DNA from: Acidobacteriota bacterium
Lineage (GTDB): Bacteria > Acidobacteriota > Terriglobia > 2-12-FULL-54-10
Assembly: GCA_016191085.1 (NCBI GenBank)
Contig: JACPPJ010000021.1
Coordinates: 1 to 64,000 of the forward strand
Length of the DNA: 64,000 bases
Direction: 5' to 3'
The translations under genes were made by a program, and so were the position numbers. Positions 9,467-18,995 of the stretch are shown piece by piece. The notes beneath the pieces were generated by a model. The model was given only the letters and a program-made list of their open reading frames with translations. It did not search any database and had not been told where the DNA came from. The stretch's first letter is position 1; every line of letters starts with the position of its first letter.

Positions 9467-10186
9467 TTAGCTGCGCGCCACGTGCAGGCCGCATTCCTTT
9501 TTCGAATCGTCCTCCCACCACCAGCGGCCGGCTCTGGGGTTTTCGCCGGGCTGGGTAGGGCGAGTGCAGGGCAGGCATCCGATGCTGGAGTAGCCTTTGC
9601 TGTACAGCGGGTGCCGAGGGACTTTGTGAGCATGGGCATACTGCTCGAGCTGCTCCCAGCTCCAATCCGCGATGGGATTCACCTTGGTAATGCCTCCGTT
9701 AGCAGCATCCACTTCCACTTTCTTGATATCGGTGCGAGTCGCCCATTGATCGCGCCGCAGGCCCGTCACCCACGCTTCGAGTCCGGCTAGATGCTTTTGC
9801 AACGGGTTCACTTTGCGGACTCCGCAGCATTCGTGCCGGTCATCTGTGCTGTTGTAGAAGAGATTCAGACCCTTGGCTCGGACCATCTTTTCGACTTCGG
9901 CCGAGTCGGGAAACAGGACAGTAAGCTCGATTCCGTAATGCTCGCGGACGCGATCCATCATGTCGTAGGTTTCCTGATGTAGTCGGCCGGTGTCGAGCGT
10001 GAACACGCGTACGGCCGGCTGAATCCGCCAGGCGATGTCCAGGACAACCATGTCCTCGATTTGCAGGCTATTCGAGAGCGCAACCCGGGGGTAAAAGCGG
10101 TCGAGCGCCCAGCGCAATACTGCCTCGGCTGATTCGCTTTCGAGCTTCTGTGCCCAATCCTGGACTTCTTCTCTCACAAGCGGCAT
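9467..10186 (-). CDS. cysH: Adenylylsulfate (APS) reductase, assimilatory
   Basis: PAPS_reduct fold; ECCGVRKVNPL plus GCLPCTR cysteine pairs typical of [4Fe-4S] APS reductases; start MPLVREE chosen because it has AAGGAG upstream and the longer ORF start (10228) lies in a REP-like hairpin. Confidence 0.9.
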   Translation of the reverse strand: MPLVREEVQDWAQKLESESAEAVLRWALDRFYPRVALSNSLQIEDMVVLDIAWRIQPAVRVFTLDTGRLHQETYDMMDRVREHYGIELTVLFPDSAEVEKMVRAKGLNLFYNSTDDRHECCGVRKVNPLQKHLAGLEAWVTGLRRDQWATRTDIKKVEVDAANGGITKVNPIADWSWEQLEQYAHAHKVPRHPLYSKGYSSIGCLPCTRPTQPGENPRAGRWWWEDDSKKECGLHVARS

Positions 10187-10209
10187 GCCAAACTCCTTAT
10201 TTCTTCTTG

Positions 10210-10290
10210 GTGCCCACGGCGAACGCATTTTTCGCCGTGGGCACGTTCTTAGATAAATCCACGGCGAGGAAAAACACTCGCCGTGGCTAC
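10210..10290. repeat. REP/BIME-like double hairpin (family 2) between cysN and cysH
   Basis: Perfect 14-bp stem gtgcccacggcgaa(10210-10223)/ttcgccgtgggcac(10231-10244) and 10-bp stem ccacggcgag(10259-10268)/ctcgccgtgg(10277-10286), ending CGTGGCTAC. Confidence 0.85.
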
Positions 10291-10300
10291 CATCTGCGGA

Positions 10301-11944
10301 CTATATTATTCGCTCCTCCTGCAACATGCGCAGCAGTTGTTCTGCTTCCAGATCGTCAGTATTGACGGACCACGTCGTGTGATGTTGCCCTGCCGATGGT
10401 TTATTCAGCGTCGAGATGCAAATGAGACCGGCGTTGTTGAGCGCTTGCGCGATAGAGGCAACGTGAGCACTTGCAGACTCATCATCCAGCACGACTGCTG
10501 CGTGACCGAGGTCGAACAGCATCCGTTCGAGCCGGTAGGCAATCTTCCAGGCATTGTGACCGCTCAACCACAGCGTAATCGCTTTTTGATCGAAGCGCGC
10601 CGCACGCTCCTGCGGAGTCACCCTGCGCGTTCTGCCGGCATTCTCCGCGAGACCGACAATCATTCCCGCGCCAACGGTAACGTTGGTAAGGCGGTCGATG
10701 ATGATGAACGACCCCGTTCCCTTGCAGCGCGCGTATGCGTCGAAAGCGAGCGGCGCGTTCAATGAGAATTCGCATAGCGCGATCCCGTTGAGCTTCAGAT
10801 GGTCCGCTGGGCGGCGGTCGAGCGTGTTCACGTCAATACGGTGATGGATCTGCGAGATCCAACCTGTAACCACCTTGGTAGTCTGCTTGATGTAATACTG
10901 CTTGCCGGGGATGAGCGGCGTCTCGCTCATCCAGACCACATGTGCGTTGAAGCGGGTGTCGAGCAGCGGCGGATTATCCGGACGCACCAACATATCGCCG
11001 CGGCTGACGTCAATCTCATCTTCCAACGTGACGGTGATCGCCTGCGGCGGAAAAGCCTCGGCCAGATCACCATCAAAGGTGACGATGGATTTCACGCGAC
11101 TGGTCTTGCGCGAGGGCAGCGCCATCACGGGATCGCCGGGATGCAAGATCCCCGCAGCCAATGTTCCGCTGTAGCCGCGGAAGTCCAGGTTGGGACGATT
11201 CACGTACTGCACAGGGAATCGCAGGTCGTCGAAATTCTGGTCGTCCACGATCTCGATGGTTTCGAGCAGTTCCATCAGCGGCGGCCCGTCATACCACGCC
11301 ATATTCTCGCTGGCTGTGACTACGTTATCGCCCTTCAGCGCCGAGATGGGAATGAATCGTATGTCATGCGGCTCCAGCGTCGAGATGAACTCCATGTAAT
11401 CGCGCTGGATCATGTTGAACACCGCCTGGCGGTATCCCACCAGATCCATTTTGTTCACCGCTACCAGAATGTGTTTGATTCCCAGCAGTGAAACGATGAA
11501 GCTGTGGCGCTTGGTTTGGGTGCGCACGCCATTGCGCGCATCTACGAGAATGATGGCGAGGTCGCACGTGGATGCCCCGGTGGCCATGTTGCGGGTGTAC
11601 TGCTCATGTCCAGGCGTGTCGGCGATGATGAACTTGCGGCGGGAGGTGGAGAAGTAACGGTAAGCTACGTCAATCGTGATGCCCTGTTCACGCTCGGCTT
11701 GCAAGCCGTCCACGAGCAGCGCCAAATCGATGTCCCCGCCCGTGGTTCCGAACTTCACGCTGTCTCTGCTGATGGCGGCGAGTTGGTCCTCGTAGATCAA
11801 CTGCGAGTCGTGCAACAGCCGCCCGATAAGAGTGCTCTTGCCGTCATCCACACTGCCGCACGTCAGGAAACGCAGCAGTTCCTTGCGCTGATGCTGGACA
11901 AGATAGTCGTGAATATCAGTAACGGTTTCGGTCTGCTGTATCAC
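10301..11944 (-). CDS. cysN: Sulfate adenylyltransferase subunit 1 (GTPase) with degenerate APS-kinase-like C-terminal extension
   Basis: [36 protein letters not shown]-terminal ~107 aa resembles CysC but lacks a P-loop. Confidence 0.94.
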
Positions 11945-11946
11945 AG

Positions 11947-12867
11947 CTAAAAATAGCCTTCCTTCTTCTTCTCTTCCATCGAGCCGGCCTGGTCAAAATC
12001 AATCACGCGGCCCTGGCGCTCGGAGGTGGTGGCGAGGAGCATTTCCTGAATGATGTCCGGCAGCGTGTCGGCGCTCGACTCGACAGCGCCGGTCAGCGGA
12101 TAGCAGCCAAGAGTACGAAAACGCACCAGCCTCATTTCCGGTCTTTCGCCGGGCCCAAGCGGCAGGCGGTCGTCGTCTACCAGGATCAAAACTCCATCGC
12201 GCTCGACAACGGGCCGCTTCTTGGCGAAATAAAGCGGCACGATGGGAATGTTTTCCAGGTAGACGTATTGCCAGACATCGAGTTCGGTCCAGTTGGAGAG
12301 CGGAAATACGCGGATGCTCTCCCCGCGGTTGATCTTGCCGTTATATACATTCCAAAGCTCAGGCCGCTGGTTCTTCGGGTCCCAGCGATGGTATTGATCG
12401 CGGAAGGAGTACACGCGCTCCTTGGCGCGGGATTTTTCCTCTTCGCGGCGAGCCCCGCCGAAAGCAGCGTCAAACCCGTACTTGTCCAGCGCCTGCTTCA
12501 GGGCCTCGGTTTTCATCACGTCGGTATGCTTTTTGCTGCCATGCGTGAACGGACCGATGCCTTGCCGCACGCCGTCCTCATTGATGTACACGATGATATC
12601 CAGTCCCAGTTCCCGAACGCGGCGTTCGCGGAATTCGATCATCTCGCGAAATTTCCAGGTGGTGTCGATGTGCATCAACGGGAACGGCGGCTTGCCGGGA
12701 TAGAATGCCTTCATCGCCAGGTGCAGCATCACGGACGAGTCTTTGCCGATGGAATAGAGCATCACCGGCTTCTCGAACTCGGCCGCCACCTCTCGAATGA
12801 TATGGATACTCTCCGCCTCGAGCTGCTTCAGATGGCTCAATTTATGCTTGCTAATCAGGTCGTTCAT
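11947..12867 (-). CDS. cysD: Sulfate adenylyltransferase subunit 2
   Basis: [50 protein letters not shown]. Confidence 0.97.
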
Positions 12868-12970: not shown

Positions 12971-13861
12971 TCACAGCATCTTCAAGCCGCCCGCCAGGAC
13001 CAACAGCGCCACTGCATATCGCAAAGGCCGGCCCGGCGTGCGATACGCCAGCCGGCTGCCAATAACTACACCGGGCAGAGAACCAATCAGCAGATTCGCA
13101 GCTAACGGCACATTGACCGTGCCGATCTGCCAGTGCGCCAGAGCCGCCGCTGTCACCAGCAACAAAGCGTGCGCGATGTCCGTGCCCACGATGGTGGTTG
13201 ACCGCAGCCGCGAGAACATGATCAAAGCCATGGCGATCAAGCTGCCGCTGCCCACGGAGGTCAGGCCTACCAGAAATCCCACCACCACGCCCAACAAAAT
13301 TACCTTCACTTTGTGGTGGGAGGGATCCACCTCGGATTGGAAGCTTGCGGCGCGCTTGCGATAAATCTCGTTCACCAAGGATGCAATCGCCGCAAAAACC
13401 AGGACCACACCCAATCCAGTCCGCACCATCTTGTCCGCCGAGCCGTAGTGCACGCTGACAAAGTGGATCAGGTAAGCAGCGACCACCGCTGATGGTACGC
13501 TGCCGATAGCCATGTACAGCACCCATTTCCAATTGATGCTGCCCTGTTTCCAGTGCTGATAGCTGCCGACCATCTTGGTCAGCGAGCCGTAGAACAAGTC
13601 GGTTCCGACCGCGATGGTGGGAGGAACGCTCAGCAGAATCAGCACCGGTGTCAGCAGAACGCCGCCGCCGACGCCCGTCAGGCCGATCAGGAATCCTACT
13701 ACCAATCCCGCGATGATGATCAGAATCCGGAACTGCGACAGCATCTCCCAGGTATCGTGGGATAACTGCCCTTGGAAGAAGTGCCACAGCATGGCCGCTA
13801 ACGGCGTCTGTGTTATTCCCATCGCGATCGCATTCACCGAATCAACTGGAGCAGTCAGCAT
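12971..13861 (-). CDS. TauE/SafE family sulfite exporter / sulfur-compound permease
   Basis: TauE/SafE signature GFLIGLTGVGGGVLLTPVLILL and internal repeat GFLVGLTSVGSGSLIAMAL; first gene of cys operon; SD AAGGA at 13867-13871. Confidence 0.92.
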   Translation of the reverse strand: MLTAPVDSVNAIAMGITQTPLAAMLWHFFQGQLSHDTWEMLSQFRILIIIAGLVVGFLIGLTGVGGGVLLTPVLILLSVPPTIAVGTDLFYGSLTKMVGSYQHWKQGSINWKWVLYMAIGSVPSAVVAAYLIHFVSVHYGSADKMVRTGLGVVLVFAAIASLVNEIYRKRAASFQSEVDPSHHKVKVILLGVVVGFLVGLTSVGSGSLIAMALIMFSRLRSTTIVGTDIAHALLLVTAAALAHWQIGTVNVPLAANLLIGSLPGVVIGSRLAYRTPGRPLRYAVALLVLAGGLKML

Positions 13862-13892
13862 AACGTTCCTTGGATAGCCCAGCTCAAAACAA

Positions 13893-13929
13893 AAAACCCA
13901 CCATCCGGGCTATCCGGCTGGTGGGTTTT
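13893..13929 (-). terminator. Intrinsic terminator (predicted attenuator) upstream of tauE-cysDNH
   Basis: On the minus strand: AAAACCCACCAGCCGGATAGCCCGGATGGTGGGTTTTTTGTTTTG. 7-bp GC stem CCCACCA/TGGTGGG extended by AAAA/TTTT, inner CCGG/CCGG, followed by a U tract. Confidence 0.85.
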
Positions 13930-13953
13930 GGTGAAATCTAACTAATTAGTGCG

Positions 13954-14058
13954 CTAGTTCAGACCACCTCCACAGCCGGACACAGGACAACAACACGTAC
14001 AACAACAGACCATGTTGCTGTTCGTTGTGCTTGCCGGGCTGTGAGAAGTCAGACTCAT
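13954..14058 (-). CDS. Cysteine-rich leader peptide MSLTSHSPASTTNSNMVCCCTCCCPVSGCGGGLN
   Basis: Manually translated (not in ORF track); 7 Cys of 34 aa with TGT TGT TGT ACG TGT TGT TGT run; lies between a promoter-like motif and the terminator upstream of the sulfate-assimilation operon; start could be internal Met at 14013. Confidence 0.75.
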   Translation of the reverse strand: MSLTSHSPASTTNSNMVCCCTCCCPVSGCGGGLN

Positions 14059-14059
14059 A

Positions 14060-14088
14060 TAAATACAAAAACACACTTCGAGAATCAA
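14060..14088 (-). promoter_or_regulatory. Putative sigma70-like promoter of the cys leader
   Basis: TTGATT (14088-14083) - 17 nt - TATTTA (14065-14060) on the minus strand. Confidence 0.45.
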
Positions 14089-14388
14089 GCGTAGACGAGC
14101 AGATTACCTCTGTCAAGCACTTTTTCCATTTTTTTTGAGCACCTACTGGATCAGCGGCCCGTGCGGCATCTGCTGAGCCAATTCATGTATACTAATGCAC
14201 TCATATGCCCCGAACAGAAGTCGCGCCGTACGGGCACGCGCCGACTGTACACCACGCCGCCACCATCCGCAATAAGATTCCTGTTCCGGCATCCCGAGTT
14301 TGACAGACCCGGCCGATCATTGCCGCGCCTCACGCGTGCGTACCGCTCCAATCGATCCGCCGTTACTCCGCCGTTCCTGGGAAGCAGC

Positions 14389-15088: not shown

Positions 15089-16633
15089 ATGGCTGCTGTG
15101 AGCGATCCTAATGAAACAAGCGGAAAAATCTACCTCGTTGGCGCCGGGCCGGGCGATCCTGGCCTGCTGACCGTTAAAGGCGCGGCTGTGTTACGCCAGG
15201 CCGACGTCATCATCTACGACTACCTCGCCAATCCCGAGTTATTGCTCGAAGCCAAGCCCGGCGCTGAGCTGATCTACGTTGGCATTCACGCGCAGGAGCG
15301 CTTGTCGCAGGACCAAATCAATAGTCTCCTGGTTGACCGCGCAAGACAGGGCAAGCTGGTCTGCCGCCTCAAAGGCGGGGACCCGTTCATCTTCGGCCGG
15401 GGAGGCGAAGAGGCTGAGTTCATTGCCTCGTCCGGTATTCCGTACGAAGTCGTGCCCGGCGTCAGCGCCGGCTACGCTGTTCCCGCATACGCCGGCATTC
15501 CACTGACGCACCGAAAGCTCTCCTCCAGCGTCGCGTTCATCACCGGCCACGAAGACCCCGAAAAAGAGGGCGGTTCCGATGTGGACTGGAACAAGATCGC
15601 CCACGGCGCTTCCACTCTGGTGTTCTTCATGGGCGTGAAGAATTTGCCGCACATCGCGCAAAACCTGATTCGCTCGGGGAGATCGCCCGATACCCCGGTG
15701 GCGATGATCCGCTGGGGCACGCGAGGCGAGCAGCAGGTCGTCACCGGAACTCTTGAGAACATCACCGATCGTTCGACCAGTGCGGGCTTGCGGCCGCCCG
15801 CGCTGGCTGTGGTCGGTGACGTCGTCACGCTGCGCGATAAGCTGAGATGGTTCGAATGCCTGCCATTGTTCGGCCAACGGGTATTGATTACCCGAGCACG
15901 CGAACAGGCCGCCGAGCTTGCGGCTCCGCTGCGAGCACTTGGAGCGGAGACGCTGGAATTGCCCGCCATCGCCATTCAGGACCCGGACGACTGGGCGCCG
16001 CTCGACCAAGCCGTGCGCTCGGCGGCGAGCTACGACTGGATTATTTTCACCAGCGCCAATGGCGTCCGGAAATTCATGTCGCGGGTGGCGGCGACTGAAA
16101 CCGATATTCGATCCCTTGCCGCGGCGAAACTGTGCGCCATCGGGCCGGCCACGGCCGCCGAGTTGCGCTCGCATTTGTTGCAGGTAGCCAAACTTCCGCG
16201 CGAGTACCGCGCCGAGGGTCTTCTCGAATCGTTTACAGGAGAGGAGATCGCAGGCAAGCGGTTCCTGGTTCCAAGGGCGAAAGTTGCGCGCGACGTACTG
16301 CCCGACGAATTACGCAAAAGAGGTGCGCACGTTGATGTCGTCGAAGCGTACCGCACCGTCGCTCCCGCGGAGTCTTCCGAACGAGCACGCATTATCTTTT
16401 CCCGCCACAAGCCCACCATTATTGCGTTCACCAGTTCATCCACTGTTCAGAATTTCCTATCGCTCCTGCCGCATGAAACCAGAGAACGGGACCTGCGCGA
16501 TGTGAAGATCGCGTCCATCGGTCCCATCACCAGCGAAACACTGCGCCGTAACGGTCTTCGCGTGGATATCGAGGCGGCGGAATACACCATTCCATCTTTG
16601 ATTGAAGCAATTCGCCGCGCGGTGAGAGGCTGA
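15089..16633 (+). CDS. cobA-hemD: Fused uroporphyrinogen-III C-methyltransferase / uroporphyrinogen-III synthase
   Basis: SUMT motifs [14 protein letters not shown] and [16 protein letters not shown]-terminal HemD fold ([20 protein letters not shown]). Confidence 0.94.
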
Positions 16634-16696: not shown

Positions 16697-17068
16697 ATGG
16701 CGAAGCGTTCGAACGCGGTAAGCCGCTATGCAAAGATGCTGGCGGCGATGGGAGCGGAGCAGCGGTTGCGCATCGTGCAGTTGTTGTTGCAAGCGCATCC
16801 GCGCGGCTTGACAGTCGGAGAAGTTCAACAGGAACTCCGTATTCCGCCTTCAACGCTCTCGCATCACCTCGATAAACTGCGAACGGAGCAGTTGGTCCGC
16901 GTCCGGCGCGAGAGCACATTTCTGTGGTATACGGCTGACGTCGAAAGCCTCCGCGAGATTCTCTCGTTTCTGTACGCGGAGTGCTGTACGCGCAGCCGTG
17001 TGATAGCAGCTGACGAACTCGTTTGCATGGTCGAGAGATGCAGCGTGCCTGGAAAGGAGAAGAAATGA
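16697..17068 (+). CDS. arsR: ArsR family transcriptional repressor
   Basis: Winged HTH with PPSTLSHHLDKLRTEQLVRVRRES; upstream of arsM/acr3. Confidence 0.9.
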   Translation: MAKRSNAVSRYAKMLAAMGAEQRLRIVQLLLQAHPRGLTVGEVQQELRIPPSTLSHHLDKLRTEQLVRVRRESTFLWYTADVESLREILSFLYAECCTRSRVIAADELVCMVERCSVPGKEKK

Positions 17069-17904
17069 GTACTCCAAACAGTGTAGAAGCCACGAAACAA
17101 TTCGTGAAAGAGAAATATGGTGCGGCCGCACTGCGCGTGATGAGCGGCGGCGCAAGCTCCTGCTGCGGTGCGGCTCAGGACACCTCAGCCTGTGGTGATG
17201 CGATCACTTCGAATTTGTATGACGCCGCGCAGGCGGGCCAGATCCCGGAGCAAGCGCTGCTTGCGTCGCTGGGTTGCGGCAATCCTACGGCGCTCGCGGA
17301 ATTGCATCCAGGCGAGACCGTGCTGGACCTGGGATCGGGCGGCGGTATCGACGTGATGCTCTCCGCCAGGCGTGTGGGACCGCACGGCAAAGCGTATGGT
17401 CTGGACATGACGGACGAGATGCTGGCGCTGGCGCGCGAAAACCAACGCACAACGGGGATCGAGAACGCCGAGTTTCTAAAGGGCGAGATCGAAAACATCC
17501 CGCTGCCGGACAATTCCGTGGATGTCATCATTTCAAACTGCGTCATCAATCTCTCGGCCGATAAAGACCGCGTGATGCGCGAAGCATTCCGCGTGCTCAA
17601 ACCCGGCGGGCGATTTGCGGTGTCAGATGTGGTTGTGCGCGGCGAGGTTCCCGACGTTATCCGTCGCAATATGGAACTGTGGGCGGGTTGTGTTGCCGGC
17701 GCTTTGGAAGAGGCGGCTTACGTCTCGAAGCTCTCCGCGGCAGGATTTGAGGCAATCCAGGTTGAGCCGACGCGCGTTTATCGCGCCGAGGATAACTCCC
17801 AGTTTCTGGCGAGCGCCGGAGTTGCCGCTGACGCCATCGCGTCACAAATAGACGGCAAATTCATGAGCGCCTTCATCCACGCGAACAAGCCGGTTCAGCA
17901 GTAG
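17065..17904 (+). CDS. arsM: Arsenite S-adenosylmethyltransferase
   Basis: [50 protein letters not shown]; overlaps arsR stop. Confidence 0.93.
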
Positions 17905-17912
17905 ATGCCAGC

Positions 17913-18995
17913 ATGGAACATATTGGGCGAAAGCTTTCTTTCTTGGACCGGTATCTGACGCTGTGGATCTTTCTGGCTATGGTGATAGGCGTTGGCGCCG
18001 GTTACGTTCTCCCGGGAATTGTTGGTGTCATCACAGGCTACCAAGTGGGGACCACCTCGATTCCGATTGCGGCGGGGCTCATCCTTATGATGTACCCACC
18101 GCTTGCAAAAGTCCGTTATGAGGAGATGGGGAAGGTTTTCCGAAACAGAAGAATTCTGGTCCTCTCCCTCATACAGAATTGGGTGATCGGGCCAATTCTC
18201 ATGTTCGCTCTCGCTGTGATCTTCCTCCGAGGTTATCCGGAGTACATGGTCGGTCTCATTATGATCGGCATTGCCCGCTGTATCGCCATGGTCATCGTGT
18301 GGAACCAACTGGCCAACGGTGATACCGAGTACGCGGCCGGTCTCGTCGCCCTCAACTCCGTATTCCAGGTGCTCTTTTACTCCTTGTATGCTTGGGTTTT
18401 TGTGACGGTCCTTCCGGAGCTGTTCGGGCTTAGAGGCTATGCCGTGAATATCTCAATCGGCGAAATTGGCAGGACTGTTTTCATCTACCTTGGGATTCCA
18501 TTCCTGGCAGGCATGCTCACGCGACTGGTTCTCGTCCGAACCCAGGGACGGGAATGGTACGAAAACAAATTCATGCCGCGAATCAGTCCGCTGACGCTGA
18601 TCGCGCTGCTTTTCACCATTGTGGTGATGTTCTCGCTGAAGGGTGACTACATCGTGCGGCTGCCGTTCGATGTGCTTCGGATCGCGCTTCCTCTTTTCAT
18701 CTATTTCGTGGTGATGTTTCTCATATCTTTCTGGATGGGACGCAGGCTCGGCGCGGATTATTCGAAGACAGCAACCTTGTCATTTACTGCCGCGAGCAAC
18801 AATTTCGAGCTTGCCATCGCTGTCTCAGTTGCCGTCTTCGGAATCCATTCCGGCGTGGCGTTTGCGGCTGTTATTGGTCCTCTGGTGGAAGTGCCCGTAC
18901 TCATCTCGCTGGTAAATGTTTCACTGCGGTTCCAGGAGTTCTTCGTACCGCCCTCACAGTCCCCGGTCTTCGCGCCTCAAGAGGTGCAACGCTGA
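17913..18995 (+). CDS. acr3: ACR3-family arsenite efflux transporter
   Basis: Ten-TM ACR3 motifs ([33 protein letters not shown]); ars operon. Confidence 0.94.

Follow-up and report, generated by a model that had tools for sequence, protein, structure and literature searches.

A probable cysteine-responsive ribosome-mediated attenuator upstream of the tauE-cysD-cysN-cysH operon in an Acidobacteriota bacterium

Our analysis of a 64,000-nucleotide stretch of Acidobacteriota DNA (hereafter the window) indicates that the leader of its tauE-cysD-cysN-cysH operon is very probably a cysteine-responsive, ribosome-mediated transcription attenuator, a reading drawn from sequence and well supported by comparison with homologous loci. 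Because a Cys-codon leader gene and a switchable terminator stand upstream of them, the sulfate-assimilation genes would probably be switched on when cysteine runs low. The relevant features of the window are as follows.

9467 to 10228, minus strand: cysH, (phospho)adenylylsulfate reductase (PF01507, Pfam)
10301 to 11944, minus strand: cysN, sulfate adenylyltransferase GTPase subunit (PF00009, Pfam)
11947 to 12867, minus strand: cysD, sulfate adenylyltransferase subunit 2 (PF01507, Pfam)
12971 to 13861, minus strand: tauE, sulfite exporter TauE/SafE (PF01925, Pfam)
13885 to 13925, minus strand: intrinsic terminator, hairpin (13925-13897) plus T-run, from folding and from stem covariation across 20 relatives
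13914 to 13925, minus strand: segment 3, the terminator 5' arm, CCCACCAGCCGG
13954 to 14058, minus strand: uORF for a putative 34-codon leader peptide, MSLTSHSPASTTNSNMVCCCTCCCPVSGCGGGLN, from sequence, with starts that align in the relatives G003 and G004
13970 to 13979, minus strand: segment 2, CCGGCTGTGG, partner of either segment 1 or the terminator 5' arm
13987 to 14007, minus strand: Cys codon run TGT TGT TGT ACG TGT TGT TGT, the predicted sensing site, kept in relatives
14034 to 14043, minus strand: segment 1, CACAGCCCGG, protector helix partner of segment 2
14088 to 14116, minus strand: probable promoter TTGACA-17-TACGCT, from sequence, with a counterpart in G003 and G004

All seven Cys codons of the uORF are TGT, and six of them belong to the run. 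The intrinsic terminator separates the uORF from the first structural gene, its hairpin starting 28 nt after the uORF stop. A first-pass annotation had placed the uORF, the Cys run, the terminator, this spacing, segment 2 and tauE at these positions, and the sequence confirms each of them, as it does the proposed pairing of segment 2 (13979-13970) with the terminator 5' arm (13925-13914) through 7 bp, a 1-nt bulge and 3 bp. Segment 2 starts 7 nt beyond the Cys run and is followed after 13 nt by the stop codon. Given this placement between run and stop, and judging from usual ribosome footprints, segment 2 would be exposed by a ribosome stalled early in the run and partly covered by one at the stop codon. 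The start codon and translation of the uORF are predictions from its reading frame, which has no clear Shine-Dalgarno sequence.

The Pfam search bore out the TauE protein, two PAPS_reduct-type proteins and the GTPase. Upstream of the operon and divergent from it lies a CobA-HemD-like fusion for siroheme synthesis (15089-16633, plus strand), followed by an apparent arsenic operon (16697-18995, plus strand) with an ArsR-like regulator, an ArsM-like methyltransferase and an ACR3-like transporter; these names are based on sequence resemblance.

In the mechanism that we propose, a ribosome would translate the uORF as RNA polymerase transcribes the leader. At low Cys-tRNA(Cys) the ribosome would stall in the Cys run and mask segment 1, and segment 2, left free, would pair with the terminator 5' arm to form an antiterminator, permitting transcription of tauE-cysD-cysN-cysH. 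With ample Cys-tRNA the ribosome would reach the stop codon, segment 2 would be either covered or paired with segment 1, and the terminator could then form and turn the operon off. What is observed is the anatomy of the leader, together with the fact that it is conserved and associated with sulfur genes; translation of the uORF, ribosome stalling and the response to cysteine are what these features predict. The leader combines a short uORF carrying a run of end-product codons, an intrinsic terminator and a mutually exclusive antiterminator segment past the regulatory codons, and the genes downstream belong to the pathway that makes the amino acid to be sensed.

As to the promoter, the sequence favors the upstream candidate, which has a perfect -35 box TTGACA (14116-14111), a 17-nt spacer and a weak -10 box TACGCT (14093-14088); G003 and G004 carry TTGACA-17-TAGAAT at the corresponding position. 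The promoter named in the first-pass annotation, TTGATT-17-TATTTA, is the weaker of the two candidates and lies downstream of this conserved TTGACA box; it is doubtful and probably wrong. A consensus promoter scan of the window accepted neither of the two.

Folding statistics indicated that each of the competing helices is stronger than expected from composition. The 167-nt leader RNA folded with a z of -5.9 against shuffles, and, taken alone, the terminator (segments 3:4; -24.9 kcal/mol, z -6.0), the antiterminator (2:3; -29.0 kcal/mol, z -4.2) and the protector helix (1:2; -35.5 kcal/mol, z -3.3) were each matched by 0 of 200 shuffles. In a separate duplex shuffle, the 2:3 duplex of the window reached only p = 0.05. 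At the gathering score, Rfam gave no match in the window to a T-box, a SAM or other riboswitch or a known leader; across 11 leader loci it returned tRNAs only, and the leader peptides had no meaningful NCBIfam match.

The pattern (TGY)3-ACN-(TGY)3 occurs a single time in the 3.47-Mb genome, which argues that the leader did not arise by chance. Used by itself as a leader marker, a poly-Cys pattern proved noisy and was set aside; its class-wide matches fell mostly in other frames of coding DNA. That a Cys-rich ORF happens to sit next to an ordinary terminator, with no regulation at all, could draw on the peptide being unannotated; we regard it as exceedingly improbable, as it is contradicted by an architecture conserved in many genomes and enriched over the reverse strand. 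Of 90 Sir upstream regions, 41 contain a short Cys-run ORF on the forward strand, compared with 3 that contain one on the reverse strand.

This conservation begins within the family. G003 and G004 carry a Cys-run uORF (peptides MRFCYSKPANTQTMADGLMACCCMCCCTSAGAGVVV and MRNSYSKLADKRGAKACAIVCCCMCCCCAPAGREQRFFM), a terminator and tauE in the same order as in the window, and in all seven same-family genomes, that of the window included, sir (sulfite reductase) is preceded by a Cys leader and, after it, a CCCACC..GGTGGG-like hairpin; the second leader copy in the window's own genome, before sir, encodes MISFGETRGTCCCCCRTSSWRVGGAES. A strict automatic filter for a Cys-run ORF plus terminator in the sir upstream regions accepted 5/7 in the same family, 16/19 in family f4, 16/23 in f6 and 1/1 in f8, and none among 40 regions from families f2, f3, f5, f7 and f12.

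To follow the leader further, we used two covariance models, which found additional leaders ahead of sulfur genes. Full-length matches to the model R1, built from 20 leaders, came from further families of the class as well as from other acidobacterial classes. At E<=0.01, R1 matched 159/299 class genomes and 67/297 phylum genomes. These counts are overstated, since many of the weak matches consist of a terminator alone; those scoring below about 30 bits, often of this kind, were left out of the leader count. A clustered-Cys uORF was present in 19 of the 21 strong loci inspected, L272 in G417 being one weak case, and the leader-bearing strong loci extend to a new family of the class, f9, and to other classes (for example G306, MKKTMCSMCCCCCMCRGR..., and G316, ...CCCCCCCRPTRPTGGSG). 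Because R1 includes the Cys run, the presence of a uORF in its matches is partly built in; the open frame and the downstream sulfur gene are independent of the model. R1 scored no higher than 28.4 bits in 43 control genomes of other phyla, where its matches were mostly terminator-only.

The leaders fall into three RNA types. Type A, the type of the window, occurs in f1, f4 and part of f6 (segment 2 GCCGGCGTGTGG versus arm CCCACCGTCGG); type B occurs in f4 before tauE, cysH and sat (GTTAGCGG versus CGCCCGCTAACG); type C occurs in f6 (CTCTGGC versus GCCAGAG). In type A, the terminator shows double changes at seven pairs among 20 relatives (0/500 shuffles), and RNAalifold recovered it as the only structure in the alignment. 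The type A antiterminator (2:3) is 86.5% paired, compared with 31-64% when the segments are slid, and has no significant covariation, the signal being weaker still across 57 matches. In type B, pairing of the antiterminator is 93.3% in 6 leaders; it is 89.2% in 29 leaders whose alignment followed the terminator and a Cys-run hairpin and not the antiterminator helix. Four pairs carry double changes, with 13 double-changed cells versus 5.3 in shuffles (0/500). The duplex-shuffle test, in which the G004 tauE row used a misplaced segment, gave p<0.05 for 16/27 type A and 4/6 type B leaders; no type C leader reached this level, leaving the type C 2:3 duplex, as defined here, unsupported. In genus g11 of f6, the sir leader peptide is strongly conserved and ends in ISGQRSFRT (L190, L191, L193-L196, L198, L199, L201, L185 and L187); the antiterminator of these leaders is likewise unsupported in the duplex test.

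The first-pass annotation had proposed aligning homologous upstream regions and looking for covariation in the competing helices. The alignment bore out the attenuator reading: the Cys uORF, the terminator and the competing segment 2 recur before tauE/cys and sir operons. In the f4 tauE/sat-type leaders, antiterminator and terminator alike show compensatory changes; the class-wide type A antiterminator is conserved but does not covary significantly.

These terminators also bear on how a Cys-codon signal might be read out. Cys codons could sense Cys-tRNA and have a Rho-dependent or translational output that does not use the intrinsic terminator, a scheme put forward for poly-Cys uORFs of actinobacteria and mycobacteria. 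Terminator-less Cys leaders have been described before the cys operons of actinobacteria (PMC1262725), and PMC9031893 reports leaderless poly-Cys sORFs as mycobacterial attenuators. We consider such an output very unlikely here, given the strong covarying terminator with its T-run between uORF and first gene in the window and its relatives.

Under the attenuator reading, the genes behind the leaders should be related to cysteine supply, and most are sulfur genes: sir, sat, tauE, cysH, cysDN and cobA. The order in G306 is leader-cobA-cysH-cysC-sir. In G226 two leaders occur, one ahead of a transporter protein with cysD-cysN-cysH behind it, the other ahead of sir-cobA. In both genomes, gene names outside the Pfam-tested set are by sequence resemblance.

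Other contexts were also observed. At ten f9 loci (L269, L271, L273, L274, L277-L280, L283 and L284) a Cys leader precedes a 1-Cys peroxiredoxin and not a sulfate gene, and at L276 (G364) a Cys leader and terminator precede a gene for a RimK-like ATP-grasp protein, which is not obviously a sulfur gene. Locus L317 (G199, f9; about 1485-1640) encodes a His-rich leader peptide, MSFQGFHHGHHHHHAMSVLAAVSGVAK, with a terminator just upstream of hisI; this is likely a histidine attenuator, and weak R2 matches in about ten other f9 genomes may represent the same hisI-type element.

In other systems, Cys-rich uORFs occur before copper genes. A poly-Cys nascent peptide might arrest the ribosome on a metal such as copper or on thiol stress, so that the signal would be something other than cysteine supply, and the leaders before 1-Cys peroxiredoxin would fit such a role. 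This reading appears very improbable, marginally more so than a Rho-dependent or translational output: sulfate-assimilation genes make up most of the downstream genes, the leaders of different families share Cys codons and little other peptide sequence, and they favor the rarer codon TGT (176/226 Cys codons in leaders, versus 39/158 TGT and 119/158 TGC in window genes).

If the cysteine attenuator is real, it would give an assigned function to attenuators of Acidobacteriota, a phylum in which almost none of the predicted attenuators had one in a 2010 survey (PMC2965389). It would show how sulfur assimilation could be tuned in abundant soil bacteria, and dozens of natural variants are available for testing cysteine attenuation. 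More tentatively, and with the balance of probability leaning against it, the ribosome might be the main cysteine sensor in a large part of the phylum, with one attenuation regulon of several RNA types, spanning the uptake, activation and reduction of sulfate, the synthesis of siroheme and, in one family, peroxiredoxin, replacing a dedicated cysteine repressor or activator.

The first-pass annotation knew of no description of this architecture in such organisms, and our literature search, with subscription papers mostly outside its reach, likewise found none for a Cys attenuator in Acidobacteriota. The closest described motif is uORFC-8-2 of Rhodobacterales cysS (PMC8632094), likewise predicted to work by ribosome-mediated attenuation and combining an intrinsic terminator with a uORF that contains tandem Cys codons. 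It is confined to Alphaproteobacteria, stands before cysS and has two Cys codons, whereas the present leaders belong to Acidobacteriota, precede sulfate-assimilation genes and usually have 3-7 clustered Cys codons, differences drawn from the published description of the motif. The leader in the window, before a tauE operon in Acidobacteriota, is accordingly not a member of that motif, which by definition precedes cysS in Rhodobacterales. Runs of Cys codons in uORFs before cysteine or sulfur genes are shared with the leader peptides of actinobacterial cys operons (PMC1262725) and with mycobacterial poly-Cys leaderless sORFs (Canestrari 2020, as cited in PMC9031893), reported as functional attenuators. 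No conserved terminator hairpins were found at the actinobacterial leaders (PMC1262725), in contrast to the intrinsic terminator and competing helices of the present one.

The mechanism itself is classical ribosome-mediated attenuation, already known in kind. The enterobacterial trp, his and leu attenuators follow a four-segment logic of regulatory-codon leader peptide, protector, antiterminator and terminator. The present leader shares this logic and differs in its cysteine signal and in its phylum.
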